Below, piece after piece: positions 24,719-48,500 of a DNA stretch of 64,000 bases. Source of the DNA: Bacteroidota bacterium (GTDB lineage: Bacteria; Bacteroidota; Bacteroidia; Chitinophagales; LD1). Where the stretch lies: NCBI GenBank assembly GCA_947475165.1, contig CANJLD010000016.1, positions 1 to 64,000 of the forward strand, written 5' to 3'. The position numbers and the translations under genes are program-made. Below the pieces are notes generated by a model. The model saw nothing but the letters and a program-made list of their open reading frames with translations, did no database searches and had not been told where the DNA came from. Each line of letters opens with the position of its first letter. The stretch's first letter is position 1.

Positions 24719-25699
24719 GTGTTTACGCCTCGCAGAATTTATCTGCTTCTTTTTTCTTCAATCATATATGTAGGTGTCAGTGCGCAGTCAGAGCCGCAGT
24801 TTACACAATACATGTTTAACCGCTATTTATTCAATCCAGCGTATGCCGGTCACGATGATGCGTTGGAAGTTTCGGCTATTCATCGTAGTCAGTATGTTTC
24901 TCTCGCAAATAGATTTATTGCAACACAGGGTTTGAATTTGAATCTTCCTATCGATGCCATCAGTTCAGGAATCGGAATTACTGCTATAAACGATTTGATT
25001 GGATTTCAACGCTCCACTTATGTAGCCTTAAATTATGCTTACCGGAAAAAATTTAAGTGGGGTAAAATGGGAATTGGTATTAGTGCAGGAATTATTCAAA
25101 CATCTATAGACGGAGATAAATTGCGCGCGCCTGAAGGAGATTATACTGGAGGAGTAAATCATAACGATAATTTTCTGCCAAATAGTTTACAGCAAGGCGT
25201 TGCTCCCGATTTATCTTTCGGCATTTATTTCAATAACGAAAAGTATTTTGCTGGGGCAAGCATCAATCATATAGCATTCTCATCGGCTTCTATTAAAAGC
25301 GAAAATGGCGGGAAAACGAAACTGAATTTCTCCCGCAATCTTTTCTTTACCGGTGGCTACGATTTTAAAATTTCGAATAAGTTCAGCATTATGCCATCGG
25401 CTTTAATAAAAACTGATTTAAAGAAAGTTCAACTCGATTTAAGTTTGACTTCTACCATTATCAACAATATCATAACAGGAATTTCGTTTAGAGGATATAC
25501 TAAAAATACTATTGATGCGTTAGCGATAGTTTTGGGTTTTAAGTATAAGGGCGTGCAATTGATATATTCGTATGATGCTAACCTTTCTTATCTAACTAAA
25601 TTCAATACCGGTTCGCATGAAATAGGTTTAAGTTATCGTTATCCGTTTAAGAAAAAAGAAAGTCGCGGTTACTTTTATCACAACCCGCGCTTTAATTAA
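24719..25699 (+). CDS. PorP/SprF-family T9SS outer-membrane protein
   Basis: A 326-residue beta-barrel protein of the PorP/SprF family, linked to type IX secretion and, in SprF's case, to export of a gliding adhesin. It has a signal peptide (ending VSAQ) and the family start SEPQFTQYMFNRYLFNPAYAG, then repeated amphipathic strands with FGIYFNNEKYFAG and FFTGGYDFKIS. The start codon is GTG. The gene lies upstream of gldKLMN, as is common in Bacteroidota, but separated by a 167-bp gap with its own promoter candidate. Several paralogues usually occur per genome, so I give no gene symbol. Confidence 0.9.
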   Translation: MFTPRRIYLLLFSSIIYVGVSAQSEPQFTQYMFNRYLFNPAYAGHDDALEVSAIHRSQYVSLANRFIATQGLNLNLPIDAISSGIGITAINDLIGFQRSTYVALNYAYRKKFKWGKMGIGISAGIIQTSIDGDKLRAPEGDYTGGVNHNDNFLPNSLQQGVAPDLSFGIYFNNEKYFAGASINHIAFSSASIKSENGGKTKLNFSRNLFFTGGYDFKISNKFSIMPSALIKTDLKKVQLDLSLTSTIINNIITGISFRGYTKNTIDALAIVLGFKYKGVQLIYSYDANLSYLTKFNTGSHEIGLSYRYPFKKKESRGYFYHNPRFN

Positions 25700-25797
25700 G
25701 TAGGTAACAAGGCAATTTTTGTATATAGTTAAACCGAAACAATGGCTGGTAGAAAACGTAATTAACATAGGGGAAAAACATTTTTTTTCGACTACTA

Positions 25798-25825
25798 TTG
25801 TAAAATCAAAAACTTATTACATTTA
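25798..25825 (+). promoter_or_regulatory. Candidate promoter for gldKLMN
   Basis: TTG at 25798-25800 and TACATTTA at 25818-25825 are 17 bp apart, close to the Bacteroidota sigma-A pattern (TTG, 17-20 bp, TAnnTTTG). It lies about 40 bp upstream of the gldK ATG in an AT-rich gap that has no gene. Confidence 0.45.
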
Positions 25826-25866
25826 CGCTCTTTAAAAAACAGGGGAAAACTATCAAAACAAAACAC

Positions 25867-27129
25867 ATGAAAAACTTACAAGGTCTTCTTAGCAAAGCTT
25901 CTCTCGCGCTTTTGCTTTTTGTTGCAGGTTGTAAAGGGGGTTACAACGGGCAACTTCTCGGAGAGCTCGATAGACCAAAATGGAATCCAATCACACCTTA
26001 CGGTATGGTGTTCATTCCATCTGGTGTGTTACACATTGGTCCGAGTGATCAAGATGTAAACGCTGCTTTGCAAGCACGTGCTAAACAAGTATCTATTGTA
26101 GGTTTCTACATGGACGATACTGAAATTACGAACAACGAGTATCGCCAGTTCATTAATTATGTGCGCGACTCTGTTGCTCATGCACTTCTTGGTGATACCA
26201 AAGAAGATGCAGATGGCAAATCAGCACTTGACTGGAATAAAAAAATTGAATGGAGCGGAAAAGAAAAGAATGAACAGTTAGAAGAAATCTATCTTCCAGA
26301 AGATGAAAGAGTATGGGGCAAGAAAGAACTTGACCTTCGTAAATTGAAATACGATTATCAGTGGTTTGATTACAAGGCGGCTTCTTTAACTAAGAACAGA
26401 GGAAAAGGAAGAACTTCTTTTATACATAAAGAAAATGTGGATGTTTATCCTGATACATTGGTTTGGGTTAGAGATTTCTCTTACTCATATAATGAGCCAA
26501 TGACTCGTAATTATTTCAATCACCCTGCATTTGATGATTACCCTGTTGTAGGTGTTACTTGGCCACAAGCAAATGCTTTCTGCTACTGGAGAACCAGACT
26601 TTGGGAAGATTACAGAACTCCACGTGGAGAGCCGTTGATGGATATCTTCCGTTTGCCTACAGAACATGAGTGGGAATATGCGGCTCGTGGTGGAAAGAAA
26701 TTAGCGCCATATCCATGGGGAGGTCCTTATGTTAGAAACTCTAAAGGTTGTATCCTTGCTAACTTTAAGCCAGGAAGAGGAAATTATCCTGAAGATGGTG
26801 GCTTCTATACTGTTCGTGCTGATGCTTACTGGCCAAACGATTACGGTTTATACTGTATGGCAGGTAACGTGGCTGAATGGACTTCATCTGCTTTCTACGA
26901 AAATTCTTACTCATTTATTCATGACCTTAATCCGGATATCCGCTACGATGCAGAAGCATCGGAGCCGGAAGCGATGAAACGCAAAGTTATCAGAGGTGGT
27001 TCATGGAAAGATATCGGTTACTATATTGAAACCGGAACCCGCCACTGGGAGTATGGTGATTCAGCAAAATCGTATGTTGGCTTCAGATGTATCACTACAT
27101 TCCTTGGAAGAGATATCACTGATAACTAA
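25867..27129 (+). CDS. gldK: T9SS lipoprotein GldK/PorK
   Basis: A 420-residue lipoprotein (lipobox FVAGC, Cys22) that forms the periplasmic/outer-membrane ring of the type IX secretion system together with GldN. The body is a formylglycine-generating-enzyme-like (sulfatase-modifying factor) domain: MVFIPSGVLHIGPSD, GFYMDDTEITNNEYRQFINY, PVVGVTWPQANAFCYWR, LPTEHEWEYAARGG, GLYCMAGNVAEWTSSAFY and the end SYVGFRC. This domain is structural here and not thought to be catalytic. It is the first gene of the gldKLMN operon. Confidence 0.96.
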   Translation: MKNLQGLLSKASLALLLFVAGCKGGYNGQLLGELDRPKWNPITPYGMVFIPSGVLHIGPSDQDVNAALQARAKQVSIVGFYMDDTEITNNEYRQFINYVRDSVAHALLGDTKEDADGKSALDWNKKIEWSGKEKNEQLEEIYLPEDERVWGKKELDLRKLKYDYQWFDYKAASLTKNRGKGRTSFIHKENVDVYPDTLVWVRDFSYSYNEPMTRNYFNHPAFDDYPVVGVTWPQANAFCYWRTRLWEDYRTPRGEPLMDIFRLPTEHEWEYAARGGKKLAPYPWGGPYVRNSKGCILANFKPGRGNYPEDGGFYTVRADAYWPNDYGLYCMAGNVAEWTSSAFYENSYSFIHDLNPDIRYDAEASEPEAMKRKVIRGGSWKDIGYYIETGTRHWEYGDSAKSYVGFRCITTFLGRDITDN

Positions 27130-27222
27130 TCATGGTCTTGTTTTTACAGGCATCAATTCAACGTTTTTATTCAAAAACTAAATATTCTTTTTTTAACCTT
27201 TAATCCTTAAAACTTAAAACAC

Positions 27223-28020
27223 ATGGCAGCAGAAAAAACGCATCCATTAACAACAAAAAACGCTCGAGTTTATCTTAATTACGCTTACTCGTTCGGAGCA
27301 GCGGTGGTTATTGCAGGGGCACTTTTTAAAATCATGCACTGGAATGGAGCTAACTATATGCTCATTGTAGGTATGGGAGCAGAAGTTATCATTTTTATTA
27401 TATCTGGTTTTGAGCCTCAGGCGGCTTTACATGCAGAGTATGAGTGGGAGAGAGTTTACCCTGAATTAGCTTCTGAAGGTCCAATCAACAAAAACCAAAA
27501 GCCATTAACTCAGCAACTTGACAAAATGTTGAGCGATGCGAAGGTAGGTCCGGATTTGATTAACAGTTTAGGTAAAGGGTTTACAAGTTTAGGCGAAAGC
27601 GTAGGTAAATTGAACGACTTAACGGATGCTACTGTTGCGGCTAACGATTTTTCTAAGAACGCTAAGAATGCATCTACTCAAATAAACACATTTGCACAAG
27701 CAGCAGCAACAGCTACTACTGCAGTTAACTCGATTGGTGCAGGTGCAGAGCATACTAAGGTTTATCATGAGCAAGTTCAAAGCATGGTGAAGAACTTATC
27801 GGCATTGAACTCTATTTATGAATTAGAACTTCAGGATTCAAACAATCACTTGAAAGCGATGAACAAGTTCTTCGGAAACTTGAACGCTGCTGCTGGTGCT
27901 CTTTCTGAAACAGCTACAGATGCTGTTAAATACAAAGACAATCTTGCGCAGTTGAATAAGAACTTAACTTCATTAAATGCAGTGTATGGCAACATGCTTT
28001 CTGCCATGAAAGCAGTTTAA
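27223..28020 (+). CDS. gldL: T9SS inner-membrane motor protein GldL/PorL
   Basis: A 265-residue inner-membrane protein that with GldM forms the proton-driven motor of the T9SS. Two transmembrane helices lie near the N-terminus, about 24-45 (YAYSFGAAVVIAGALFKIMHW) and 48-65 (NYMLIVGMGAEVIIFIISGF, ending in the conserved Glu region GAEV). The long cytoplasmic tail is helical and rich in Ala/Asn/Leu with coiled-coil character. Order and spacing within gldKLMN are canonical. Confidence 0.95.
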   Translation: MAAEKTHPLTTKNARVYLNYAYSFGAAVVIAGALFKIMHWNGANYMLIVGMGAEVIIFIISGFEPQAALHAEYEWERVYPELASEGPINKNQKPLTQQLDKMLSDAKVGPDLINSLGKGFTSLGESVGKLNDLTDATVAANDFSKNAKNASTQINTFAQAAATATTAVNSIGAGAEHTKVYHEQVQSMVKNLSALNSIYELELQDSNNHLKAMNKFFGNLNAAAGALSETATDAVKYKDNLAQLNKNLTSLNAVYGNMLSAMKAV

Positions 28021-28069
28021 TTTCTGTAGTGGAAAACATTGTTTAATCCAAAAATGAGAAACTAAGAAA

Positions 28070-29695
28070 ATGGCAGGTGGCAAATTAACCCCGCGGCAGA
28101 AAATGATTAACATGATGTACCTCGTGTTAACCGCTCTACTCGCATTGAACGTATCGCAGGAAGTATTGAACGCATTCCACTTGGTAAACGAGGGTTTGCA
28201 AACTTCCAATGGGTCGTTAGGCGAAAAAAATCAAAACATCTACAAGATGTTTGAAAAGCAAAAAGAACAAGACGCTAAAAAGGCGCAAGTTTATTACGAC
28301 AAAGCACAAAAGGCTAAAAAAATATCAGCGGATTTGTTTGCTTTAATGGAGCAATACAAAGTAGATATCATTAAAGGTGCAGGTGGTATTGATACAGTTG
28401 AATCTGATGATATTGTTGAGCGCGATAATATTGATGTAGCTACCCGTATGTTTGTGGAAGAGGGTGCAGGAGTGAAAAGAGGACAGGATTTACAAAAGAA
28501 AATTTTGGATGCGCGTAAAGATTTGTTAGCCTTAGTGGATGACAAAGACAGAGCAAATTTTAAAATGTCTTTAGATGCTCCAACTCCTAAGAAAAAAGGT
28601 GAGGAAGGCGCTAAATGGGAATACTTGACTTTTAGTCACGTTCCTGCAACTGCTGCTGTTACTATTCTATCTAAATTTCAGAATGATGTAGTAAGTTCGG
28701 AAGGTGCGGTAGTCGAGTATTTGATTAAGAAAATTGGTGAAACGGATTTCAAATTTGATGCATTGGCTGCAAAAATTATCGCTCCATCGAGCTATATTAT
28801 GCAAGGTCAGGCATACAAGGCAGACGTCTTTTTAGCAGCTTTCAACTCAACTCAACAACCGGAAGTGTTTTTGGGTTCTGTAGGCGGGTTTAAACGTAAT
28901 GCTGATGGAACTTATGACAAAAAAGATTCGCCAGATGCGCTTCCTGCAGGGTATTCTGAAAGCAGTAAGCTTAAAGCAGAAGGTGGAATGGCTAAACTCG
29001 AAAGAGGTGGTGGTTCTGTTGGTGAGCAAAAATATACCGGTATTATCCGTGTTAAGAATCCGGTAGGAGGCTATACTTTCTATCCTTTTGAAGGAGGTTA
29101 TCAAGTTGCTGCGAAAGCAGTGGTGGTTTCTCCTACTAAGATGAACGTTCTTTACATTGGAGTTGATAACCCAATGAAAATTTCGGTTCCGGGTGTTGGA
29201 GCGAACGATGTTACAGCTAACCTGCAAGGTTCTGGAACATTGAAGAAGAATCCTGATGGAACTTATACAGCTAATGTAACGGGTGTTGGAAAATGCCAGG
29301 TTGCTGTATCTGCTAAAATTGAAGGTAAGGTTCAGGCTATGGGTTCGGAAGAATTCCGTATCAAGCGTATTCCTGATCCGCAGCCTTCTTTAGGGGGTAA
29401 GTTATTTGGAGGAAATACACAGCCGGGTTCTATCAAGGCACAAAGCGGTGTGGTAGCATTGTTGAAAGATTTCGACTTTGATGCGCGCTTCAACGTAATT
29501 AGCTTCCAGATGGTATTCTCTTCGAAAGGTGAAATTTTTAAGGCTGAAACACAAGGGCCTATATTTAATGCCAATATGAAGGCTTTCTTAGACCGTGCTA
29601 AGCCGAAGGATATCATTTTCATTGACGAAATTAAAGTTGTAGGACCTGATAAGCAACCAAGAAAATTAGGTCAGATTGCATTTACTATTATCTAA
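28070..29695 (+). CDS. gldM: T9SS motor/periplasmic shaft protein GldM/PorM
   Basis: A 541-residue protein with one N-terminal transmembrane helix (RQKMINMMYLVLTALLALNV, about 8-27) that sits in the GldL bundle. A large periplasmic part of four domains reaches the GldK/GldN ring. The N-terminal motif GKLTPRQKMIN is diagnostic. Later beta-rich domains show YIGVDNPMKISVPGV and KRIPDPQPSLGG, both typical of GldM. The downstream gldN start lies 10 bp past the stop. Confidence 0.96.
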   Translation: MAGGKLTPRQKMINMMYLVLTALLALNVSQEVLNAFHLVNEGLQTSNGSLGEKNQNIYKMFEKQKEQDAKKAQVYYDKAQKAKKISADLFALMEQYKVDIIKGAGGIDTVESDDIVERDNIDVATRMFVEEGAGVKRGQDLQKKILDARKDLLALVDDKDRANFKMSLDAPTPKKKGEEGAKWEYLTFSHVPATAAVTILSKFQNDVVSSEGAVVEYLIKKIGETDFKFDALAAKIIAPSSYIMQGQAYKADVFLAAFNSTQQPEVFLGSVGGFKRNADGTYDKKDSPDALPAGYSESSKLKAEGGMAKLERGGGSVGEQKYTGIIRVKNPVGGYTFYPFEGGYQVAAKAVVVSPTKMNVLYIGVDNPMKISVPGVGANDVTANLQGSGTLKKNPDGTYTANVTGVGKCQVAVSAKIEGKVQAMGSEEFRIKRIPDPQPSLGGKLFGGNTQPGSIKAQSGVVALLKDFDFDARFNVISFQMVFSSKGEIFKAETQGPIFNANMKAFLDRAKPKDIIFIDEIKVVGPDKQPRKLGQIAFTII

Positions 29696-29705
29696 AAACA
29701 GAACC

Positions 29706-30530
29706 ATGTTTAAGAAAGGAAAATTTGTATTCGCTGCGCTTCTGCTAATGTTTGCAGGCGTTGCTTTTGCCCAAGAACCATTGGATGGTGCATGGGTAAA
29801 AACCACTACCAAAGAGAAGGATGTAATTCCTTACGACTACATTCGTGAAGCGGATGTGTTTTGGGCAAAGCGTATTTGGAGAATGATTGATGTGCGCGAG
29901 AAAATGAACTTACCGTTCAAATATCCTCAGCAGCCGTTGATTGAAATTCTTCATACTGCTGCTAAGAACGGTGAATTGACCGTTTATGACCCATCGGTAG
30001 TGGATGCAGACCAGTTTAAACAGGTAATGAGTGTAGAAGATGTGAAAAAGCTCGGAACCCGTGTAGATACAGTAATGCAGATTAACCCGATTACTTTGGA
30101 AGAAGAGCAGGTGATTCAAAAGAACGACCTTACCTGGGATAAGATTGTAAAGTATCGTGTTAAGGAAGACTGGTTTTTTGATGAAGAAACTTCGACTATG
30201 ATGTGCCGCGTTATTGGTATTGCACCTATTATGGAAGACTTTGATGCATCGGGTAACTACCGTGGAGATATGACTATGTATTGGTTGTATTACCCGGATC
30301 TTCGTCCTATTCTTGCTAAGTATGAAGTGTTTAACCCGAAGAACGATGCAGTGCGCATGAGCTGGGAAGATATTTTTGAAGCGCGTTTGTTCGAAAGCTA
30401 TATTTACAAAGAAAGCAACGTGCATGACCGTAATATTCAAGAATACGCTACCGGTATAGATGCGTTATTGGAAAGTGACCGTGTTAAATACGAGAACTTT
30501 AACTTTGAGCATGACCTTTGGAATTATTAG
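29706..30530 (+). CDS. gldN: T9SS ring protein GldN/PorN
   Basis: A 274-residue exported protein that associates with GldK in the T9SS ring. I chose the ATG at 29706 because it begins the signal peptide FKKGKFVFAALLLMFAGVAFAQ; an in-frame start at 29676 would overlap gldM and add ten residues. Family motifs are ADVFWAKRIWRMIDVREKMN, YRVKEDWFFDEETS, MYWLYYPDLRPILAKYEVFN and WEDIFEARLFESYIYKESN. It ends the operon, with a terminator 28 bp later. Confidence 0.95.
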   Translation: MFKKGKFVFAALLLMFAGVAFAQEPLDGAWVKTTTKEKDVIPYDYIREADVFWAKRIWRMIDVREKMNLPFKYPQQPLIEILHTAAKNGELTVYDPSVVDADQFKQVMSVEDVKKLGTRVDTVMQINPITLEEEQVIQKNDLTWDKIVKYRVKEDWFFDEETSTMMCRVIGIAPIMEDFDASGNYRGDMTMYWLYYPDLRPILAKYEVFNPKNDAVRMSWEDIFEARLFESYIYKESNVHDRNIQEYATGIDALLESDRVKYENFNFEHDLWNY

Positions 30531-31190: not shown

Positions 31191-32108
31191 ATGGCAAAAG
31201 AATTATCACCCTCACGTAAAGTTGCTGCAAAAGCTTTATTCAGTGCGTTTAAAGTCCTTAAAGAAAATGGTGGAAGTATGCGAGGTCTGGACGTAGTTGA
31301 AAAATTACGCAAGACAATTGAATTTAATGAATGGGAAAGCCACCGTTATGAAAAGACAGGCTACATCCGCTGGGAATCTATTCTACATTTTTTTACGATT
31401 GATTGCATTAAGGCTGGCTTCATGCAGAAAAGTAAAGGGTTGTGGACATTAACTCCGGAGGGAGAAGCTGCAATGAAGTTAGGTCAAGATGGAATGCTGC
31501 AGGCAGCGAATAAAGCTTATAGAGCATGGAGAGAAAAGACGAAACCTGATGAAGAAGATAAAGACATAGTGAGCGGTGAAGCAGAAACAAAAGAGGAAAC
31601 GTTTGAACAAAAGCAAAAAGCACTTATTGGACAGTACGAAGACCAAGCCTATAAAGGACTAAGAGATTATATTCTCAATAAAAATCCTTACGAATTTCAA
31701 GACTTGGTTGCCGCTTTACTTTCTTCGATGGGTTATTTCATTTCTTTAGTATCTCCTAAATGCAGAGATGGTGGAATTGACATTATTGCGTACACTGACC
31801 CATTGGGGACGAAGCAACCCCGAATTATTGTACAAGTGAAACACCGTCCAGATGCAAGTATTTCCTCAGACGATATTCAAAGATTAAGCGGCACAATGAA
31901 GCGTGAAACGGATGTAGGAATATTTGTGACCAGTGGTGACTTTAGCCAACCGGCAAAATCAGAGGCAAGGCTTTCAGGAAAACACATTGAGTTAATCGAC
32001 TTCAATCGTTTTATTGTGTTATGGACTCAGTACTACGACAAGATGAAAGATGAAACAAAATATATGCTGCCTTTGCATCCAATTTATTTTTTGGGAAGTA
32101 ATGAGTAG
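31191..32108 (+). CDS. mrr: Mrr-family restriction endonuclease
   Basis: A 305-residue type IV-like restriction enzyme that cleaves modified foreign DNA. Residues 1-105 form the Mrr N-terminal winged-helix domain (RKVAAKALFSAFKVLKENGG, GYIRWESILHFFTIDC, LWTLTPEGEAAM). A charged linker (115-150) leads to the Mrr catalytic domain: NPYEFQDLVAALLSSMGY, then the active-site residues Asp197 in DGGIDI and Gln215-x-Lys217 in VQVKHR, and GIFVTSGDFSQPAK. No methylase is adjacent, as expected for a modification-dependent enzyme. The zinc-ribbon gene follows 11 bp later. Confidence 0.93.
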   Translation: MAKELSPSRKVAAKALFSAFKVLKENGGSMRGLDVVEKLRKTIEFNEWESHRYEKTGYIRWESILHFFTIDCIKAGFMQKSKGLWTLTPEGEAAMKLGQDGMLQAANKAYRAWREKTKPDEEDKDIVSGEAETKEETFEQKQKALIGQYEDQAYKGLRDYILNKNPYEFQDLVAALLSSMGYFISLVSPKCRDGGIDIIAYTDPLGTKQPRIIVQVKHRPDASISSDDIQRLSGTMKRETDVGIFVTSGDFSQPAKSEARLSGKHIELIDFNRFIVLWTQYYDKMKDETKYMLPLHPIYFLGSNE

Positions 32109-32320: not shown

Positions 32321-32418
32321 ACCTTTGCTCGGCATCTTGTATTGGCTGTTCGGGTTAGCGCTTGGAGCGGAAATCCTTTTTTGCTTTTAGCGTAAAGAAA
32401 TCTTTTTGTAATTAGGGT

Positions 32419-32445
32419 ATTGCTTCGCGGAGCCTCGCAATGACG
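32419..32445. repeat. REP-like half element
   Basis: ATTGCTTCG plus five bases plus CCTCGCAATGACG repeats the right half of the palindrome at 11566-11648 with two mismatches. It lies in the convergent gap between the zinc-ribbon gene and the caspase-like gene. A second hairpin, CGCCTGCTTTGAGGCG, follows at about 32486. Confidence 0.7.
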
Positions 32446-32546
32446 TTTGGACGGGAGCAAAAAAGATTGCAGCGTAAAGCGCGCCCGCCTGCTTTGAGGC
32501 GGAACCCCATTATGCTTTTAGATAAGAGTGCGGATTTTGTGTTGGT

Positions 32547-34688
32547 TTAATTTTCCTGTTCAACCATGCGGTTGTAGGTTTTTATGAAGATGGCACCGAG
32601 GTTTTTGTGCGGGGGGATGTAGTCGAGGAAACGTTCGTAGGCTTTGGGGTTGGTTTTTACGGTTATTTCTAAATCGTTCCAGAGTTTTTGCCATTCTACA
32701 TCTTCGCCCCGGTTGATGTATTCGGCCATGAGTTTGAGCATGGGGTTGTTGACGAACATGGTGCCTATTTGCTTGCTGGAAATAATGCTGGCCTCGGAAG
32801 ATTTTTCGATGATGGAGGAGATGCTGTGATAGCCACCGCAGGAGCCGAGGACAAAAATTTGTGTGTCGTCTTTTATTTTCTCGATAGTTTTTGAGGCGTA
32901 GTAGCTGTGGCCGCGGTGCACGAGGACGTTGGGTTCGTAAAAATTATCGGTGAAGATTTTTTCGAGGCGCGCCTGACCGTCATATTCGTTTTTAGGCTTG
33001 TTGGCAAAAATATTTACATCGCGCCCGTGCTTTGATTTAATGATTATATAAATGCCGGAGTCGACAACCGCCCAGTTGGAATCGGTGAATGTTTTTTTGA
33101 AGGCGGAGAAAGAAGCATCGCCATCTTCATCGTCATAAAAATAAATGAGCCACCGGTTGACGCTGTCGCGCGCAAATAGTTTTGAACTACGAATGCGGTC
33201 AAATTCAGGGAGCGCATATTGTTTGGAAACGGAAGCAAACCAGTTTTGGTTGGTGAGGTTTCGCTCTACAAATAAATTGGAGAACAAGCCATAAAGTGCC
33301 ATGCCGTGAAAATCGTTTTTAGCATGGAGGCGGATGTATTCGTATTTAATGGCACCGCGCAGAATACGGAGTACGAGCGAATCGGTAATGCTTCCGAAGG
33401 CATCGGCTACCTGCACTGCCTGCGATAAATCGTTGTATTGCTCGAGACCGCTGGCGAATTTTACCATGAGGAGTTGCTGATGCAACTGGCTCATGCTGCC
33501 GAGAAACTCGCTTAGCTTGCCAAAGCCGGCACTCATTTTTATAAATGTGCGGAATTTATTATCGCCTACAGATTTCAAAAAATCGAAACCGGACTGGTCG
33601 CCCATTTTTATCATCATGCGGTTAAAGAGTCCGTTGAAGGTGGAAGTGAAAATTTCTTCTTCGCTGTAAATCATGAGGGTGTAAAGTTCCTGCGGGGTGA
33701 AATCTTCGATGGAGGCAAAGCGGAGTTCGTCCTTCTCGTTATGCAAATCGTTTATTACGCGCACAAACTTTAAGGCATATATCTGCAATTCGTCTTCGAG
33801 CGAGTGTGAGGCGAGCGGATTTTTGCGTGCGCGTATATTCAGCATTGACCTTAAATACTTTTGCGGATTGTTGCCGATGGCATCGGCTTTTTCCATGGTG
33901 AGTTTACCTTTTACGATATCGTCAAGCAGGGTAAATGCGTTTGACTTGCGGCTGTATTTTTCTTTTATCTGCAGAATGATTTTTATGGCAGTGTCGTTAC
34001 TCTTTTGGAGGGCTTTAAAAATATCGTCTTTGGGGTTGAAGTAGCGTTTTACCTTTACCGGTGCAATTTTTGCGGCTTCTTCTATTACATGCAGGGAGTA
34101 GTTGCGTGAAGCATAGCCATCGTAATTGATGAAAACCAAATCGGGGCGGTATTGCACAGCAAAAATTAAAAATGAATCGGCACAGGTTTCGTTTTTAAAA
34201 ATACCGATGGTGTTAAACGATAGCGGAATGTTTGCGGATAAGTAGCTGTAGAGTTTGTGTTGCTGAATAGCATTCAGTTCTCCGAGAATAAAACGGAATA
34301 TATTATCGAAGCGTTTTACATTGTAGATGGTCCGGTTGTTTATTCTGCGAAGGTGCAGGTAAACTGTTTCGCGAATGGGCTTGCGCTTAGCTTCATCAAA
34401 TTTCGGACTCTCCACCAATCGTTGAATAGAATCAATGAGTTTGAAGTAAACCCGCCCAGCATAAGCCGAAAGTGCGGAATCATCTAAGTCAACTTTGCCG
34501 TCTTGCTTATCGTCAAACAAATCAATCTTGTCTTGAAAGTCATCAATGTAGTAATCGCCCTTTTTTATGTTGCTTTTGGTGAGCGTGGAGTCACCGATGG
34601 CGAAAATGTTTTGTGTGAACAGTAATAGCAGTAACCACAAAAATGTTTTTTGTGTGGTGCTAAATAATTTTTGAGACTGTCTGTTCAT
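32547..34688 (-). CDS. Exported putative clan CD (caspase-like) protein, single helical module
   Basis: A 713-residue protein with a signal peptide (about 1-30), a long helical region and a C-terminal alpha/beta domain. The helical part (about 180-420) carries a module found twice in the upstream neighbour (KIAPVKVKRYF, LLDDIVKGK, ADAIGNNPQKYL). The C-terminal domain has VLVHRGHSYY with His594 and, 23 residues on, IFVLGSCGGY with Cys617. This is the His-then-Cys layout after hydrophobic strands seen in clan CD cysteine peptidases and CHAT domains. Conserved ISSKQIGTMFVNNPM and DYIPPHKNLGAIFI follow. I do not recognise the family; catalysis is inferred. Its ATG follows the upstream stop directly. 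Confidence 0.75.
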   Translation of the reverse strand: MNRQSQKLFSTTQKTFLWLLLLLFTQNIFAIGDSTLTKSNIKKGDYYIDDFQDKIDLFDDKQDGKVDLDDSALSAYAGRVYFKLIDSIQRLVESPKFDEAKRKPIRETVYLHLRRINNRTIYNVKRFDNIFRFILGELNAIQQHKLYSYLSANIPLSFNTIGIFKNETCADSFLIFAVQYRPDLVFINYDGYASRNYSLHVIEEAAKIAPVKVKRYFNPKDDIFKALQKSNDTAIKIILQIKEKYSRKSNAFTLLDDIVKGKLTMEKADAIGNNPQKYLRSMLNIRARKNPLASHSLEDELQIYALKFVRVINDLHNEKDELRFASIEDFTPQELYTLMIYSEEEIFTSTFNGLFNRMMIKMGDQSGFDFLKSVGDNKFRTFIKMSAGFGKLSEFLGSMSQLHQQLLMVKFASGLEQYNDLSQAVQVADAFGSITDSLVLRILRGAIKYEYIRLHAKNDFHGMALYGLFSNLFVERNLTNQNWFASVSKQYALPEFDRIRSSKLFARDSVNRWLIYFYDDEDGDASFSAFKKTFTDSNWAVVDSGIYIIIKSKHGRDVNIFANKPKNEYDGQARLEKIFTDNFYEPNVLVHRGHSYYASKTIEKIKDDTQIFVLGSCGGYHSISSIIEKSSEASIISSKQIGTMFVNNPMLKLMAEYINRGEDVEWQKLWNDLEITVKTNPKAYERFLDYIPPHKNLGAIFIKTYNRMVEQEN

Positions 34689-37600
34689 TTAAACACCGAG
34701 TATTTTATAGTAAGCACGAATAAAAATTGCTCCCAGATTTTTGTTAGGCGGAATGTAGTCTCCGAAATACTGATTGCCTCCAAGTTTATCGCGCATCTTC
34801 TCCCAAAAGTCATTCCACACTATATCTTTACCGTTGCGAATGTTTTCATTCAGCGCGTAAATCATTACATCGTTAACCGTTTTTGTGCCTATTTGCTTTG
34901 TGGAGATGATGTGCGCCTCGGGCGCGTTTTCTAAAGCAATAGAAAGTTTATAGAAGCCACCGCACGAGCCCACGAAAATAAGTTTAGCAGAAGATGGAAC
35001 TTTTTCGAGTGTTGACTCTGTATGAAAGCTGTGGCCGCGGTGAACAATTACCGTAGGGCTCAAATTTTTCTCTTTAAAATAAGCATCAATAGCATTGGTG
35101 CCATTTTCTTCAAACTCCGGTTTGTTTGCAAGAATTTCCACGTTCATTCCTTGCCTGGAAGAAATGCGCACGTAGCTGTTGCGGTCTTCTACATTCCATG
35201 CCCGTTGGTTTTTGTAGGTGTTGATGAAGTTGATATATGAGCTGCGGCCGTCATCATCGTTGTAGAAATACATTTGCTCTACACAGTTCTTCCCGTTATT
35301 AAAAAGCTGCGAAGATGAAAGCGATGCCACCGGTAAGATTTTAAACTGCTGCGAAATCTTTTTATACCAGGTATTTTCCGTTCGCGCATTGCCGGATATT
35401 ACGCTTGATAAAACTCCGTAAATAGAAATGCCTATTTGGTTACTATCAGCCTTTACGCGCTCGTATTCCTTTTTAATATTTGCCTGAAGAACGGTGAGCA
35501 GTTGGTCATCGTTGATGTTAGAAACCGATTCGGCAATAAGAATTATACTGGAGAGGTCGTCTTGTTCCTGCTCTAAGTTAGAAGTGTATAAAACGAATAA
35601 ATCGTTTTTTGCCTCGCCTGAAAATTTGGAGAGAAAATCTTTAATGGTTCCGAAGTTAGAGCAGAGTGAAATGAAATCGCGAAACTGATTGTAGTTGACC
35701 GATTTTAAAAATGCATCGCCATTATTAGCGGGCAGTTTTTGCATAAACCGGTTGAATAAGCCGGTGAAGGTGGAAGTGAAAACTTCATCGCGACCATACA
35801 ACATCAGAAAATACAATTCGGCAGAACCAAAACCTTCTACGGAATAAAACGGCTGTGAACTACCGGTGGCAATCTTGTCGTTTATCTCGCGGATGAAGCG
35901 CAAACTGTAGTCGCGCATTTCGCGGTCGATACTATAAGCTCCTACATATTTTGGCTGCGAAATAATTTTCACCATTGCACTGAAAAGCTTGTTCGGCTCG
36001 GTGCTGATGGCAATGGCTTCCTTCGCATCAAGATTTCGGTTCATTATATCATCGAGCAATAAATACGGCTTGCTATGGTAGCCCAGCGCATCATTTATTT
36101 CCATTATTTTTTTAACGAAAGGGTTTTTGCTGTATTGCAAAATGTAATTAACCGGATGCTTCGAATTATACAAATAGCGCTTTAACGAAAGCGGTGCATT
36201 GGTGGCGCACTGCTCGAGAATTTTTAAGCTGTAACGTTTCTGTTTGTAAGCATCAATTTTCTTGAACAATTCATCGGGCTCTTTGCGTGCTGCATAGAGC
36301 AGAATTTCTTCGGCATAATCTTTTTCTATGAACGAAGGAAAGTTTTGCAGCGTTTGCAGAATATTTTTTTTGAGCGAAATAATTGTGCGGGTGCGTACGT
36401 CTAAGTAAATTTCTATTGGTTCAACAACCGGTTCTGGTATAGGAACGGGAACAATGTCAGGTTTAGTTTCTTCTACCTTAACTTCTTCTGCAACAACAGT
36501 TGTGCTTTCGGTGGTGATGAGGAGGGGTTTGTTTTCTACCCACTCTTTCATCTTTTCCGGTTTTGCAATGCCCGGTTCTTCGCTCAGGGTATCGCTGGCA
36601 ACTGCTTTGGGCGCATGTGCTTTTGTAATTTCGTTCAGCGCACGGTCTTCCGGTTCGCTATTGGTTGCCGGGTTATCTTTTGCAAAGGTTTTAAACGGAG
36701 GGAAGAGATTTTCTTTTTCCTCAAGCGAAGAAAGAGCTAGCAGATAATCTTTCTTGTCATCATCCACCACGCTCAGTATTTTTTCGAGAATTTCGTTTTT
36801 ATCGCAATGAATAATCAGTTCTTTCAATCTCGATTTATCGAGCGATGCCAGCATGATACTGCTTACAGGAATGCCGGTTGATTGTTTCTTGAGCATTTCA
36901 ATTAATGCCTGGAATGTTTTAGTGGTAGTTTCCTTGTAGCCATAACTCAGCAATACAAACATTTCTTCGGGCGTGTATTTTTTAAATGCCGTATAATAAT
37001 AGCTCGCATTGAATGCATCCTGATTTATTTTGCGCACAGCATCGATGCAATAAATGTCCAGATAACGGTAAATAGAGAAGGTGACGTTGGCTTCGTATTT
37101 CATAGATAACTGCACCAACAAACGGAATAACTGGTCGGGATTATTGCCGATGGAGTCTGCGGCTTCAAGCGAAATGTTATTGCTTACTATTTCATCTAAC
37201 AGCAAGTAGGCGCGCGAACGTTGACCGAACCGGTTGTATATCTCAAAAGATTTTCGCACAAACAATTCTTTGCTCTGTCGCAAAATATTGCTCACTGGTC
37301 CTGCACTACTGTAATAGCGTTTGGCTGATTCCGGTGCAAGTTTTACAGCCTTCTCTAAAAGACGAAGAGCAAACTTGCGATCATCAAATTCTTCGGTGTA
37401 GCGGAAGATATCATCGGGATGGTCGGTGAGATAATCTGTAAGAAAATCTTCGGCAATTGTATCGCTTGGAATCAAACGTGTTGCCTTGATGGAGAAAGCC
37501 GAATAGCGTTTAATGTTTCGGAGCAACTCATCTTTCTGGTCCCACTCAATCATGGAAGGGTAATAGCTGAGCACAGCCAAATATGTTCCAGATTTTAAAT

Positions 37601-37943
37601 AGCTATCGGAATAATACCGGTTGACGTTGGTGAGGAAAATTTGCAACCGCTTTAAATAAAGATTGCGTCTGTCTTTATCTACATCTTGTGCCAACACAAA
37701 TTTTGTAATGCTGTCAATTAGGTTGAACAAGCGGCTGTCGGCACTTTTATAATCGTTGGCGATGCGGCTTTTTTCAAAACTAATTCGCTGGAGTAAAATG
37801 CTTTTTTCCGATTCAAATAAATCAATAGTAGAATCTGCTTGAACGCGCATGCCTGCCATCACGTTAGTAGTGAATAGAAATGCAAGAAACAAGAATGCTA
37901 TTTTTCGAAACGCGGACAATTTATTTTCTAATAGATTTGGCAA
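34689..37943 (-). CDS. Exported putative clan CD (caspase-like) protein, duplicated helical module
   Basis: A 1084-residue paralogue of the following gene. Signal peptide about 12-30. A helical module at about 162-400 recurs at about 542-780 with a constant offset of 380 residues (for example LLDEIVSNN/LLDDIMNRN and APESAKRYY/APLSLKRYL). The modules are joined by a Pro/Glu/Val linker at about 420-512. The C-terminal domain has VIVHRGHSFH (His971) and IFVGSCGGFY (Cys994), the same 23-residue spacing as in the paralogue. STKQIGTKTVNDVM and DYIPPNKNLGAIFIRAY also match. Probably periplasmic or surface-located. No T9SS sorting tail is evident. The two genes form an operon. Confidence 0.78.
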   Translation of the reverse strand: MPNLLENKLSAFRKIAFLFLAFLFTTNVMAGMRVQADSTIDLFESEKSILLQRISFEKSRIANDYKSADSRLFNLIDSITKFVLAQDVDKDRRNLYLKRLQIFLTNVNRYYSDSYLKSGTYLAVLSYYPSMIEWDQKDELLRNIKRYSAFSIKATRLIPSDTIAEDFLTDYLTDHPDDIFRYTEEFDDRKFALRLLEKAVKLAPESAKRYYSSAGPVSNILRQSKELFVRKSFEIYNRFGQRSRAYLLLDEIVSNNISLEAADSIGNNPDQLFRLLVQLSMKYEANVTFSIYRYLDIYCIDAVRKINQDAFNASYYYTAFKKYTPEEMFVLLSYGYKETTTKTFQALIEMLKKQSTGIPVSSIMLASLDKSRLKELIIHCDKNEILEKILSVVDDDKKDYLLALSSLEEKENLFPPFKTFAKDNPATNSEPEDRALNEITKAHAPKAVASDTLSEEPGIAKPEKMKEWVENKPLLITTESTTVVAEEVKVEETKPDIVPVPIPEPVVEPIEIYLDVRTRTIISLKKNILQTLQNFPSFIEKDYAEEILLYAARKEPDELFKKIDAYKQKRYSLKILEQCATNAPLSLKRYLYNSKHPVNYILQYSKNPFVKKIMEINDALGYHSKPYLLLDDIMNRNLDAKEAIAISTEPNKLFSAMVKIISQPKYVGAYSIDREMRDYSLRFIREINDKIATGSSQPFYSVEGFGSAELYFLMLYGRDEVFTSTFTGLFNRFMQKLPANNGDAFLKSVNYNQFRDFISLCSNFGTIKDFLSKFSGEAKNDLFVLYTSNLEQEQDDLSSIILIAESVSNINDDQLLTVLQANIKKEYERVKADSNQIGISIYGVLSSVISGNARTENTWYKKISQQFKILPVASLSSSQLFNNGKNCVEQMYFYNDDDGRSSYINFINTYKNQRAWNVEDRNSYVRISSRQGMNVEILANKPEFEENGTNAIDAYFKEKNLSPTVIVHRGHSFHTESTLEKVPSSAKLIFVGSCGGFYKLSIALENAPEAHIISTKQIGTKTVNDVMIYALNENIRNGKDIVWNDFWEKMRDKLGGNQYFGDYIPPNKNLGAIFIRAYYKILGV

Positions 37944-38010: not shown

Positions 38011-38508
38011 ATGAAACGAATTTCTGTCCTTTTTACTGCTTGCTTTTTCATAGTGGCGTTAACAGGTTGCCACTTTAAGGAAAAACGCGCTAAGGAATAT
38101 CGCGATACTGTTTTGCAAAGCGTGCAGGGAGTAATTGATAATTCGCTTGATTATGGCGATGCCGTGTTGAGTTACGAAAAGGCGCGGGCAGTTCAGGCTC
38201 ATGAAAAATATTCTGCTCTTGTAAACAGCACTCTTTTCAAAATTGACTCGTTGAAAGATTTTGAAGGCGATACCACTATGCAGTTTTTTTCAAAAGAACT
38301 ACTCGGGTTTTATAAACGCAGTTTGAATAATGAGCTTTCTCCGTTTTTGCAATCGGTAAAAGCCGAAGCATTTTCGCCCGAAGAAATGCTTGTTGCGGAT
38401 TCGCTGATGAGCAACCTGAACATGACAGAAAGCCGGTACTGGGAACGGTTTAACTGGGCGGAGAAGAAATTTTATAAGGAAGAGAATATCGAGAAGGTAG
38501 AGAAATAA
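38011..38508 (+). CDS. Lipoprotein of unknown function
   Basis: A 165-residue lipoprotein with lipobox LTGC (Cys20). The mature region is helical and charged, with DYGDAVLSYEKARAVQAHEKYSAL and an acidic C-terminal part, resembling helical-bundle proteins annotated as LIC11966-like surface proteins; that resemblance is from memory. It is divergent from the caspase-like gene pair, which starts 67 bp away, so they share a regulatory gap. Its stop abuts the stop of the convergent response regulator. Confidence 0.72.
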   Translation: MKRISVLFTACFFIVALTGCHFKEKRAKEYRDTVLQSVQGVIDNSLDYGDAVLSYEKARAVQAHEKYSALVNSTLFKIDSLKDFEGDTTMQFFSKELLGFYKRSLNNELSPFLQSVKAEAFSPEEMLVADSLMSNLNMTESRYWERFNWAEKKFYKEENIEKVEK

Positions 38509-39192
38509 CTATGCATCAAACTTATACCCAATACCCTTAATAGTTTTAAAATAATCGTCACCAATTTTTTCGCGCAGTTTGCGGATGTGAACATCAATAG
38601 TTCTATCGCCAACGATAGTATCAGTGCCCCAAACCTTACTTAGAATTTCTTCGCGTTTAAAAACTCTTCCGGGTTTTGAAACCAGTAGATTCATCAATTC
38701 AAATTCTTTGCGCGGCAACGAAATTTCTTTCCCTGCTTTAACTACTACATAACGTTCGCGGTCAATTTCAATATCGCCTACTGCAAATTTTCCGGTAGTT
38801 TCATTGGTTTCTAATCTTCTCAAAAGTGCGCGAATGCGACTTATAAAAACCCTCGGCTTAATGGGCTTGGTAATATAATCATCGGCACCCACTTCAAATC
38901 CGGCAATCTGCGAGTAATCTTCATCGCGTGCGGTAAGAAAAGTGATGATAGTATTTTTGAACTCCGGAATGTTACGCAACTCGCGGCAGGTTTCAATGCC
39001 ATCCATCTTCGGCATCATCAAATCAAGAATGATGAGATGCGGGTTCATCTTCTTCGCCATTTGAATTGCCTCTACTCCATTGTGCGCTGTGTATACCCAA
39101 AATCCTTCTTTCTCCAGATTGTACTTCATAAAATCAAGCACATCAGTTTCATCATCTACCAGTAAAATTTTAAAATCATTTACATCCATCAC
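38509..39192 (-). CDS. OmpR/PhoB-family response regulator
   Basis: A 227-residue two-component regulator. The receiver domain has the acidic pair Asp13/Asp14, phospho-acceptor Asp57 in ILDLMMPKMDG, Thr in FLTARDED and Lys in DDYITKPIKP. The C-terminal winged helix (about 130-227) shows LPRKEFELMNLLVSKPGRVFKREEIL and GDRTIDVHIRKLREKIG, the DNA-recognition helix region. Bacteroidota proteins of this sort resemble RprY/PhoP. No histidine kinase is adjacent, so its partner is unknown. Confidence 0.95.
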   Translation of the reverse strand: MMDVNDFKILLVDDETDVLDFMKYNLEKEGFWVYTAHNGVEAIQMAKKMNPHLIILDLMMPKMDGIETCRELRNIPEFKNTIITFLTARDEDYSQIAGFEVGADDYITKPIKPRVFISRIRALLRRLETNETTGKFAVGDIEIDRERYVVVKAGKEISLPRKEFELMNLLVSKPGRVFKREEILSKVWGTDTIVGDRTIDVHIRKLREKIGDDYFKTIKGIGYKFDA

Positions 39193-40046: not shown

Positions 40047-42281
40047 ATGCTTATATTTTTTAAAGACCTTTATTATTCTTTTCCGGTGCAACTTCTGTTG
40101 CTCTCTTTTAAGCGGCATCAGTTTCTTCTCTTCTTCTGGATTTTTTTGTTTGCAATTGTTGTAGGAAAATTTGGTGCAGGCATTGGAACACACTCGGTAC
40201 TTCTCGACCCAGAATATTTAGGCAATGTTGGTTATTTGAGTTTTGCTGTTGTAGGAATTGGTTTCGGAGCCATGTTTATTACCTGGAATGTGGTCATGTA
40301 TATTCTCAACTCGCACCGGTTCCCGTTTATGGCGAGTTTACAATATCCGCTGGGCATGTTTATTCTGAACAATGCGATTATTCCGTTGGTATTTTTCATT
40401 TCGTACTTCGCAACGGTTATTCATTTTCGGGTGAAATACGAGTATCAGGGATTTTGGCAAATCTTTTTTGAACTGCTCGGATTCTTTGCAGGCTTTGTAT
40501 TAATGCTTTTGTTAACGGCTGTTTATTTCAACTTCACCAACAAGAACACCGGTAGTATTATTGAAGAAAACAAAGAGCGGTTGTGGAAGAAAAAATCAAT
40601 GCGCAAAGTTCGGTTTAACGAAACGCTGGAGCCCGAGCAATTTAATAGAGTAGATTTTTACATCACCAATAAATTCAACATTCGACATACTCGTACGGTT
40701 GAACACTACGACCCTAAACTACATCAGCTTGTTTTTCGCAGACATCATTGGAATGCTTTCATTGCCTTTGTTTTTTCGATGGTGATTTTGGTTTGTATGG
40801 GTTTTTTTCTGGAGAATCCTTTCTTTCAGTTTCCGATAGCTGCTACTGGATTTCTGTTTGTGAGTTTGCTCATGTCCATGTTCGGAATGTTTCTGTATTG
40901 GACCGGTGGGTGGGGTTCTATGGCAATTATCATCTTTCTTTTGTTCGCTAACTATCTGACCAAATTTGATGTGTTCGGATTTCAAAGCCGCGCGTATGGC
41001 TTAAATTACAGCACAAAAGCAACTTACAATCTTGAAACGTTTCGGGAAATTTCTTCCGACTCTGCTATTGCAAATGACAAAGCATATTTCCTGCCGATTT
41101 TAGAAAACTGGTTGCACAAAAATACAGACCCGCGCCATCCGTTCAAAAAACCGAAAATGTATTTTGTGAATGTAAGCGGTGGTGGTTTGCGCGCTGCTAT
41201 GTATAGTATGGTAATGTTGCAACAGTGTGACAGCATGGCAAAGGGAAATCTGTTCGACAAAACATTTTTAATAAGCGGTGCCTCGGGTGGAATGTTTGCT
41301 ACTACTTATTTGCGCGAATTATTTTTGCAGAAGAAAAACGGTTTTCCAATTAATCTCTCTAACCAGCAATACACCGAAAATGTTTCAAAAGATGTGCTGA
41401 ACCCGATTGCACTTTCTATTTTAAGTAACGATGTGCTGATTCCCTTTCACCGGTTTTCGCTGGCAGATAAGCAATACAGTGTTGACCGGGGTTATGTTTT
41501 TGAGAAATTTTATTGCAGCAATACGGGTTTCCCGTTCGAGAAAACAATTGCCGATTATCGTTCTGATGAATACAGTGCAAAAATTCCTTTGTTAATTTAC
41601 CACACCACTATTATGAACGATTCGCGCAGGTATTATATAAGCCCGCAACCGGTTTCGTTCTTAATGCGTCCGCACGGCAAGAAAGCCCTTGACAATAAAA
41701 TGGAAATTGATGCGATTGATTTCTGTCAGTTTTTCAAAAGGCAGGCGAGCGATAGTTTGCTGGTTACTTCTGCCATGCGCATGAATTCAACTTTCCCTTT
41801 CTTTTTCCCTAATTCAGTTTTACCAAGCGAGCCTTCTACTTTTGTAATGGATGGCGGTGCTCTTGATAATTTCGGAATTGAAACTACCCTCCGGTTCTTA
41901 AATACATTCAGCGATTGGATAGATAAAAATACCAGCGGAGTGGTGATACTTCAAATTCGCGATTCGCAAAAATTTGAAGAGCCGGAAGCATCGGAACAAA
42001 AAACAGTGTTTGCACGCATAACGGACCCGCTGGGAACCGTATATACCAACATGGAAAACATGCAGGATTTTTTAACCGATTACCGGTTAGATGAAATGAG
42101 CGAAGAACTTCGCGGCAAACTTCAGTTCGTTTTGTTTGAATATACTTCGGAGAAGAAGGATGAGAAGGCTGCTATGAGTTTGCACCTTACAACGCTTGAT
42201 AAAAGTGATATTCTGAAATCGGTAAAGCGTCCGAATAATGTTCAGTCGTTTAATAAGCTGAAAGCTTTGCTGGAAGAGTAG
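40047..42281 (+). CDS. Membrane-anchored patatin-like phospholipase
   Basis: A 744-residue protein. The N-terminal 300 residues hold about seven to eight transmembrane segments (for example FLLFFWIFLFAIVVGKFGAG and AFIFSMVILVCMG-like stretches). The C-terminal domain is patatin-like: glycine-rich oxyanion loop GGGLR (378-382), nucleophile Ser413 in GASGG (G-x-S-x-G) and Asp602 in DGG complete the Ser-Asp dyad. Such enzymes hydrolyse acyl ester bonds of lipids. Because the membrane part precedes the catalytic part, the active domain is probably cytoplasmic or at the membrane face. It ends 7 bp from the convergent DinB gene. Confidence 0.87.
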   Translation: MLIFFKDLYYSFPVQLLLLSFKRHQFLLFFWIFLFAIVVGKFGAGIGTHSVLLDPEYLGNVGYLSFAVVGIGFGAMFITWNVVMYILNSHRFPFMASLQYPLGMFILNNAIIPLVFFISYFATVIHFRVKYEYQGFWQIFFELLGFFAGFVLMLLLTAVYFNFTNKNTGSIIEENKERLWKKKSMRKVRFNETLEPEQFNRVDFYITNKFNIRHTRTVEHYDPKLHQLVFRRHHWNAFIAFVFSMVILVCMGFFLENPFFQFPIAATGFLFVSLLMSMFGMFLYWTGGWGSMAIIIFLLFANYLTKFDVFGFQSRAYGLNYSTKATYNLETFREISSDSAIANDKAYFLPILENWLHKNTDPRHPFKKPKMYFVNVSGGGLRAAMYSMVMLQQCDSMAKGNLFDKTFLISGASGGMFATTYLRELFLQKKNGFPINLSNQQYTENVSKDVLNPIALSILSNDVLIPFHRFSLADKQYSVDRGYVFEKFYCSNTGFPFEKTIADYRSDEYSAKIPLLIYHTTIMNDSRRYYISPQPVSFLMRPHGKKALDNKMEIDAIDFCQFFKRQASDSLLVTSAMRMNSTFPFFFPNSVLPSEPSTFVMDGGALDNFGIETTLRFLNTFSDWIDKNTSGVVILQIRDSQKFEEPEASEQKTVFARITDPLGTVYTNMENMQDFLTDYRLDEMSEELRGKLQFVLFEYTSEKKDEKAAMSLHLTTLDKSDILKSVKRPNNVQSFNKLKALLEE

Positions 42282-45581: not shown

Positions 45582-48500
45582 TTAATGAACGACTAATTTT
45601 TGTAACAGTTTGTCGTCATTATGCTTTAGGCGGATAAAGTATTCGCCTGCTCGTAATAGTTTTACCGGTAAATCATAATCTGTTCTTCCAGCAGGTAAAT
45701 CAAGTTCTTCGGGTTGCGTTACAATTCTTCCGAGCACATCAACTATATCAATAGTTACTTTGCCTGCTTTAGGAAGTATCAAGCCCAAATACGCACTTCC
45801 TCTTGCGGGATTTGGAGAAGGACCCACTACCTGCATAACTCCATTTACAGAAGCACACTGGCGGTTATTGTCAATTCTTGTTTCTGCTTCTCCATCATTT
45901 ACACTTTTTGCTTCTACACAGACATAAGAATTGGCGTTAGCTGCAGCTACTACAAAATTGGCATTGAAGAGATAATATTTCGATTCGCCCGACTGAATCA
46001 ACGTATCCCAGTTTTCACTGATAACTCCACCACTTCCAATAGTTGAATAAAATGTAACGTCTGTAATAAGGCGCGTTCCTTCGTTGTGAGCATACACAGT
46101 AACCGAAATCAAAACCGTTCCATCTGCTTGCGGGGCACTGGTTGTTTCTACATAATCTACGGCTATATCTAAATCGGTAGGAATTACCTGAATGTTTTTT
46201 GTGGCAGAATCAACACAACCAAAGTCGCTGGTTGCTGTAAGGGAAATTTCGAAAGTTCCGTTGGCAGAATAAACGTGTGAAGGGGCTATTGAATTATCTG
46301 TTGCTCCATCTCCAAAATTCCAGAAATAAGAGTTTGCATTTATACTCTGGTTATCGAATACTACATTTAATGGCGCATCTCCATACAACGGAGTAAAACT
46401 AAATGCCGCAGTAGGATTTGGTGTTACATGCACTAAATGGCTTGTAGAATCTTTACATCCGCTTTGCGAAGTAACCAACAACTTCACTGTATAATTTCCG
46501 GTGTCAACGAAAAAATGTTGTGGCACCTGGCCATTGTAATTTGTTCCCGCAATATTCCATTTCCACGTATTCGAAGTTTCATAAACTGTAGAAGCATCAA
46601 GCGGAGTATAATACTGGTCTTCGCAACTAACTAAATCAGTAAATGCTGCAGTTGGCGATTTATAAATGGTGAACGATTTGCTCACCGAATCAACACAGCC
46701 AATAGCATTTTGAATTTGGAGTGTCACTGTTTTGTTTCCAAAAGTGCCGTACTTGTGTTTGAAATTTTTCTTAGTGGAAAAGAAATTGTCACCGGTGTTC
46801 CAAAGCCATGATACTAAGGAGAGCGATGAAGTAATATCTGTAAACGAAGTAGAGTCGCCAAAGCAAACCTTTTCGAAATTGAAATCTGCTGAGAATGGCG
46901 CGAATACTTCAATGGAATCTGAAATAAAATCTGAGCAACCATTGTTGTTGGTCACTTTCAGTGATACTCCATATTTGCCCTGAGTAGGGAAAGCAAATGT
47001 CGGATTCTTGAAAAATGAAGAATCTGCATTAGTAAAATGCCATTTCCATTGAGCAATTGCGGATGATGTGGTATCACTCAAATCAATAAATTGTGTTTGC
47101 GCTAATGCACAAGAAACTTTTGCCTGAAAATGCGCCTGCGGTTTTAAGTAAACCGACAAATTTTTAGTTATTGTATTTAAACACCCTGAATCGGTATAAA
47201 CCGTAAGCGAAACTGGATAAGTTCCGCTTGTTCCAAACACATGCGTTGTATTTTGAACGCTATCCAAATCTCCGTTTCCAAAATCCCAAATCCATGACAC
47301 GAGCGCATTGCCGTTAGGTGGGATGGAAGAATCTACAAACGAAATTGTATCTGTTGCGCAAAGAGTTGGATTCGTATAATTTACTGTAGGTGCAATACCT
47401 TTAATAAATACATGAATAGTATCTTCTGCCAAGCAACCATTATTATTTTCTGCCACCACCGAATAATTTCCGGTAGTATTAATTACCGTTTCATTGGTTG
47501 TATCACCGGTTGACCAAAGAATAGAAGTAAGTGGATTTGGATAAACAAAATTCAAACGATTGCCTGAACAGAAAGAAGTATCAGCCCCTAAACTGTAATT
47601 AGGAAAATTGTCAACTGTAACCTGCACCACCGCAGAATTAAAGGTGCAGTTGAAAGCATCTTTAATAGCTACCGAATAATTGCCGGGCATTTTAATAACG
47701 ATGGATGTAGTATTTGCAACAGGTGACCAAGTAAACTGGTAACCGGTAGCCGGGTAACCTGTATTCCAAGTTAAAGAATCACCCGCACATAAAAATACGT
47801 TCTGAGGTAATTGATTGAATGCAATTTGCGGGCGAATATTGATGGTATCAGAAGAAACATAACCAAAAAAATCTGTTGCGCGCACCCAATATGTGCCAAT
47901 GGCAGTTACATTTATACTTGCGGTAGTAGCACCGGTTGACCACAAATAAGAACTAAAGCATGAAGCCGAACTTAAATTTACGTTTACGCAAAACCTATCA
48001 AAGATGGTATCAGGCCCCAAATTAACCGGTGGGGCAAATTTGTAGCGCAAATATCTTTCTGCTAATTCTCTGTCAACGCTGTCGAGCGAGTTATCGTACA
48101 TCACAATTTCAGCTATATCGCCCTGGTAGGATAGTTGTTTATTATCTGGGCGAGTTCCTATACCGCTTAATGATACCGAAGGAATAACTGAGTTTGAATG
48201 ATTGGCACTTGGTGGGCAGTTAGCAAACTCTGTACTGTTTCTGAAAATGTGATTTTTTTGAGTGGTGTAAATACTAAATCCTGGTAATTGAACACTCGGC
48301 ACCGAAGCATACAAAGCATTTGCATTTTGCAAACTGCTGTATGTTCCAAAGCCACCATTGTAATAATTTGACTCTGCACACAAGCCGCATTGCGGTCCGC
48401 CTAATACATATTGCATGTATTTAGGTGGTTGCGGCAGTTGAGTGTAATTGCGAACAATTAGTGCCGTGTACTCTGTCAAATTCAGTGTAGGGAAATCTAA

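Follow-up and report, generated by a model that had tools for sequence, protein, structure and literature searches.

P1 and P2, two adjoining genes on the reverse strand of the 64,000-nucleotide stretch of Bacteroidota DNA analysed here (the window), encode members of a real, conserved and undescribed family. We favour, with moderate confidence, the reading that these are unnamed exported cysteine peptidases in which a clan-CD-like (caspase/clostripain/CHAT) tail is carried on a helical domain. The original prediction of a caspase-like C-terminal domain is supported by predicted-fold matches together with conservation of its Cys and His residues, and we infer proteolysis itself.

Architecture and motifs of the paired proteins

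The short paralogue, P1 (32547-34688), is a protein of 713 residues comprising a Sec-type signal peptide assigned by eye (aa 1-30, ...NIFA/IGDS, lacking a lipobox Cys; 34599-34688), a helical domain that is all-alpha in the AlphaFold model (aa 48-490; 33219-34547), and a clan-CD-like C-terminal domain defined by the domain model and its fold matches (aa 496-713; 32550-33203). The long paralogue, P2 (34689-37943), has 1084 residues and consists of a signal peptide followed by helical copy A (36714-37826; about aa 40-410), which the P1/P2 alignment shows to be homologous to P1 82-354, a linker rich in Pro and Glu by sequence (about aa 410-515; 36399-36716), helical copy B and a clan-CD-like C-terminal domain (34692-35330). 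The two genes had been described as adjoining without an intergenic base and as encoding signal-peptide proteins of these lengths, which proved exact to the base: P2, whose start codon is TTG, ends in a TAA that touches the ATG of P1. The leaders of both proteins are of the Sec type without a lipobox, and a similar hydrophobic leader is visible by eye in nearly all intact homologues.

Common to P1 and P2 are a helical region and the 215-residue C-terminal domain, and the likeness is not due to chance, since pairwise alignment gives 36% identity across 563 residues (E 1e-116). The second helical copy of P2 lies at its N-terminus, where residues 73-347 align with P1 82-354 at 25% identity.

Both C-terminal domains carry the HRGHS and GSCGG motifs as claimed, with the putative catalytic residues 23 positions apart in each protein. 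By alignment, the P1 HRGHS motif (32904-32918) contains His591 (32916-32918) and the putative catalytic His594 (32907-32909), and its GSCGG motif (32832-32846) contains the putative nucleophile Cys617 (32838-32840); the corresponding P2 residues are His968 (35040-35042), His971 (35031-35033) and Cys994 (34962-34964). The shared KQIGT (at 639 in P1 and 1016 in P2) and DYIPPxKNLGAIFI motifs are also present. Behind the first strand of the P1 domain lies a further conserved stretch, Asp520-Glu-Asp522-Gly523 (33120-33131), whose two Asp residues and Gly are kept in 81, 79 and 81 of 82 aligned domains, respectively.

Family spread, conservation and pairing

Pfam, NCBIfam and PADLOC models and PDB sequences yielded no convincing match to the family, and profile searches against Pfam, PADLOC and PDB were empty. 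None of CHAT (PF12770), C11 (PF03415), C14 and C25 appears in the Pfam families listed at E up to 1 for 57 members or at E up to 10 for P1 and P2, and no TPR family in Pfam matches the helical part at E 10, a region that is helical in the model. The statement that no described family combines such a helical repeat with this tail stands with respect to sequence matches, but the layout itself has precedents in TPR-CHAT/Csx29 and separase.

One scan of species genomes returned 17 loci, and a C-terminal-domain profile was used for wider genome counts. Within the window's taxonomic family, 29 of 30 genomes are positive, the sole exception being a genome that is 69% complete, and there are nearly always two copies per genome, of about 700 and about 1020-1220 residues, with long and short forms in tandem. 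The proteins are carried by 78 of 199 genomes at the level of the order and by 22 of 395 at the level of the class, the latter bringing in another order, where the copies are single and short; the phylum-level search gave nothing credible beyond the same order. Its lone weak match outside the known clades, in genome G618, was rejected as spurious, being an antisense frame within an AMP-binding (acyl-CoA-synthetase-like) gene. No relative was found in the phages and viral contigs searched.

Four plasmids of Azospirillum (Alphaproteobacteria) carry a homologue annotated as hypothetical, with E values down to 4e-17. Two of these matches extend from the helical part into the domain (query 305-678 and 345-696), indicating that the whole architecture, and not the tail alone, crosses phyla. 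The plasmid proteins were left out of the positional entropy table and were assessed in a separate alignment, where overall identity is about 25% and both HRGHSY and GSCGG are retained. At three of these four loci (L125-L128) the homologue adjoins ethanolamine ammonia-lyase genes, and the helical regions of L127 and L128 contain short tandem repeats (GIGETPTRS / GTGETPARG).

Conservation was computed over 82 distinct aligned C-terminal domains. H591, R592, G593, S595, G615, S616, C617, G618, W666, Y690, P693 and N696 are invariant, and D520, G523, N647 and W670 each change once. Alignment of homologues had been proposed as a check on the putative catalytic pair; it shows Cys617 in all 82 domains, His594 in 80 and both residues in Azospirillum. 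His591 (His968 in P2), present in all 82, is the more invariant of the two His in HRGHS. His594 and Cys617 lie 23 residues apart in 81 domains and 22 apart in one. His594 is replaced by Leu at L077 and by Tyr at L079; both proteins are of the long type and sit on long branches, and their short partners retain HRGHS. These two proteins (L077:9169-12204, HRGLS; L079:5462-8266, HRGYS) keep GSCGG intact and are candidate pseudo-enzymes beside intact short partners. Where dS is measurable and finite, dN/dS is 0.04-0.13, several comparisons being saturated, and the sequences within that range indicate strong purifying selection.

In a quick tree the long forms are set apart by a branch whose SH-aLRT is 98, and this single clade points to one ancient duplication into short and long forms. 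The long/short pair is kept in several families, usually in tandem, with the stop and the next frame abutting or overlapping. An OmpR/PhoB-type response regulator, usually with a kinase, adjoins the family in many relatives; in the window the regulator gene (38509-39192, reverse strand) is separated from the P1/P2 pair by a divergent gene for a small putative lipoprotein (LTGC; 38011-38508, forward strand) that is kept in 10 loci. A kinase lies directly upstream and co-directional at L015-L018, L047 and L057; at L079 regulator and kinase are both upstream. Many sampled members of group f21 have a divergent regulator-kinase, and in the window's genome the closest kinase relative is on another contig (46% identity). 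These neighbours amount to an association between two-component systems and the family and are not proof of regulation.

Predicted fold and proposed active-site assignment

An AlphaFold2 run with 32 family members gave a pLDDT of 86 for full-length P1 and of 90.8 (pTM 0.88) for the domain alone, the motif-bearing loops being less sure, with block means of roughly 69-88. The modelled domain comprises strands at 510-517, 539-543, 547-552, 557-563, 588-592, 611-614 and 634-638 and helices at 523-533, 565-581, 595-602, 620-629 and 644-659, and in it His594 follows strand 588-592 and Cys617 follows strand 611-614, on consecutive strands as in clan CD. The order of elements, b1-a1-b2-b3-b4-a2-b5(His)-a-b6(Cys), fits that of PmC11 (PMC4357240), where His133 and Cys179 come after strands 5 and 6 (PMC4357240; PMC4850288). 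Clan CD, for which a 2025 review counts eight MEROPS families, is marked by a Gly preceding the catalytic His (PMC12445089); all 82 domains have this Gly (G593), as well as a small residue before the Cys (S616), in keeping with the clan.

In VIA-align searches with the domain model, the top match was SAVED-CHAT (PDB 8tl0; Z 10.8, 161 residues, rmsd 3.4 A) and the second was C11 iotapain (Z 8.8, 183 residues, rmsd 4.0 A), above a GTPase plateau at Z 8.2 and lower in which clostripain (7.7) and a C11 zymogen (7.6) are also found; a clear margin over the GTPases, of 2.6 Z units, is thus seen for SAVED-CHAT only. The full model matched separase (Z 8.8), Csx29 (8.1), caspase-6 (8.0), TPR-CHAT (7.8) and GTPases (up to 8.3), as well as DdvA at Z 9.6 but with an rmsd of 8.8, a loose match. 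DALI Z scores among accepted clan CD families are 7.6-9.2 (PMC4850288). Two viral clostripains occupied ranks 1-2 in the viral library BFVD (E 8.9e-5, probability 1.00), and plain Foldseek on PDB was led by small GTPases, with SAVED-CHAT at rank 8 (E 1.4e-3). By hhalign no match was significant (CHAT P 0.07, C11 0.87, C14 0.57, C25 0.4); the CHAT alignment nevertheless set Cys617 on the CHAT Cys, and the C25 alignment did not align the motifs. Comparison of the C-terminal fold with clan CD, a check put forward with the original prediction, returned several clan CD families, with the caveat that GTPases score nearly as well, and on the strength of the model we consider it probable, with rather high confidence, that the domain has a clan CD fold.

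We favour His594 as the putative base, with His591 giving structural or active-site support, because His594 comes after its strand in the model, is preceded by Gly and falls on the CHAT His in a hand alignment (..HFATHG.. vs ..VLVHRGHS..); His591 is placed inside the strand. Against this choice, His591 never changes, whereas His594 is replaced by Leu or Tyr while the Cys is kept. The specificity position of C11 peptidases is an Asp at Cys-2 (PMC4850288), which here is the invariant Gly615 instead, and a preference for basic residues at the substrate P1 position, exerted through D520/D522, is therefore only a guess.

A clan CD fold may also serve a function other than ordinary peptide hydrolysis, and we judge it unlikely that these proteins are transpeptidases/ligases or sortase-like enzymes (compare legumain ligase and PorU), or a regulated pseudo-enzyme pair. 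In legumain the same dyad is reported to support ligase activity; C25 proteins are encoded in this genome, including one near type IX secretion (T9SS) genes a short way beyond the window, and His594 has been lost from two long-type members. However, sorting genes are not a shared neighbourhood in relatives, and the short partners retain the full dyad even where the long form has lost His594.

That the domain is an unrelated alpha/beta one whose His591, His594 and Cys617 make up a metal or redox site seems more doubtful still: HxxH together with Cys could bind a metal, and the greater invariance of His591 would suit such a site, but His594 is lost in two members while His591 and the Cys stay, and G593, S616, the strand-end positions and the fold matches fit clan CD. 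A degenerate small-GTPase-like (P-loop) domain, to which the leading Foldseek matches on PDB (Arl3, FeoB and Rab, E 3.7e-4 to 1e-3) and the VIA scores would point, is very improbable and can be set aside because the P-loop is missing, GxxxxGK[ST] being replaced after the first strand by FYxDxDG with D520 and G523 each kept in 81 of 82 domains, while no GTPase family in Pfam matches, SAVED-CHAT stands above the best GTPase and clostripains outscore GTPases in BFVD.

Proposed function and the wider window

Among known systems, CHAT proteins provide the closest structural match to the modelled P1 domain; as in P1 and P2, their His-Cys domain is C-terminal and preceded by a helical or sensor part. 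In Csx29, TPR-like helices precede a caspase-fold tail, H615 and C658 are essential, and distant contacts reposition these two residues (PMC10028731). In contrast to CHAT proteins, which are cytoplasmic, P1 and P2 are exported and have no CRISPR context. Their His-Cys distance of 23 residues compares with 43 in Csx29 (PMC10028731) and 46 in PmC11 (PMC4357240), and so short a loop would leave little room for C11-type activation cleavage there. The C11 peptidases (iotapain, clostripain, PmC11), second-best by predicted fold and first in BFVD, show the same succession of secondary elements as far as the Cys strand, and iotapain, to judge by its PDB title, is also secreted and from Bacteroidota; P1 and P2 differ from them in lacking a PF03415 match and the Asp at Cys-2 and in possessing a large helical N-domain. 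Separase (C50) resembles the full model in placing a clan CD domain C-terminal to a helical superstructure, but it is eukaryotic and intracellular and no sequence relation to P1/P2 was found. The gingipain/PorU (C25) proteins are clan CD, exported, of the same phylum and present in the window's genome, but are not significantly aligned by hhalign, and P1 and P2 have no match to a T9SS sorting tail.

By the peptidase reading that we prefer, Cys617 (Cys994 in P2) would act as the nucleophile and His594 (His971) as its base, while the helical arm may bind or position a substrate or partner and gate the active site, by analogy with TPR-CHAT proteases and separase. The two proteins are presumably co-translated and may cooperate in the periplasm or at the outer membrane, where they would cut a few envelope proteins rather than degrade proteins generally; the frequent two-component neighbours would be consistent with a proteolytic step within an envelope signalling circuit. 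With two paralogues that would be co-translated, the long one occasionally lacking its His, a heteromer of unequal partners would be plausible.

A more specific proposal, which we offer tentatively and consider somewhat unlikely, is a module of regulated periplasmic proteolysis in which two co-translated clan CD peptidases form a heteromeric pair that acts on a specific envelope substrate and is wired to a two-component system, the long partner being a pseudo-protease in some lineages. If true, such a module would be new to bacteria. A further, sequence-isolated exported family, widespread in Chitinophagales and also found in Alphaproteobacteria, with a fixed ancient pair would extend clan CD to a probable housekeeping role in the envelope; its genetic association with a regulator and a kinase offers a direct route to the pathway, and the protein sizes are practical for expression.

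The window also contains a type IX secretion neighbourhood (24719-30530 and 45582-49049) with PorP/SprF, GldL, GldM and GldN, an FGE-sulfatase-domain protein in a GldK-like position and a large PKD protein that carries a Por sorting tail. Just past the end of the window lies a C25 (PorU-like) gene (G000:C16:64631-65767). A T9SS link drawn from this gldLMN/PorU neighbourhood was dropped, as relatives of P1/P2 occur without it. Between gldN and the P1/P2 pair is a gene for an Mrr-type restriction endonuclease-like protein (31191-32108, forward strand), and a match to the Flavo-1 sRNA family (32340-32490, forward strand; 47.3 bits, E 4.5e-7) lies just past the 3' end of P1. At 40047-42281 (forward strand) lies the gene for a membrane protein whose patatin-like phospholipase domain scores 26.2 bits against a Pfam cut-off of 27.7.
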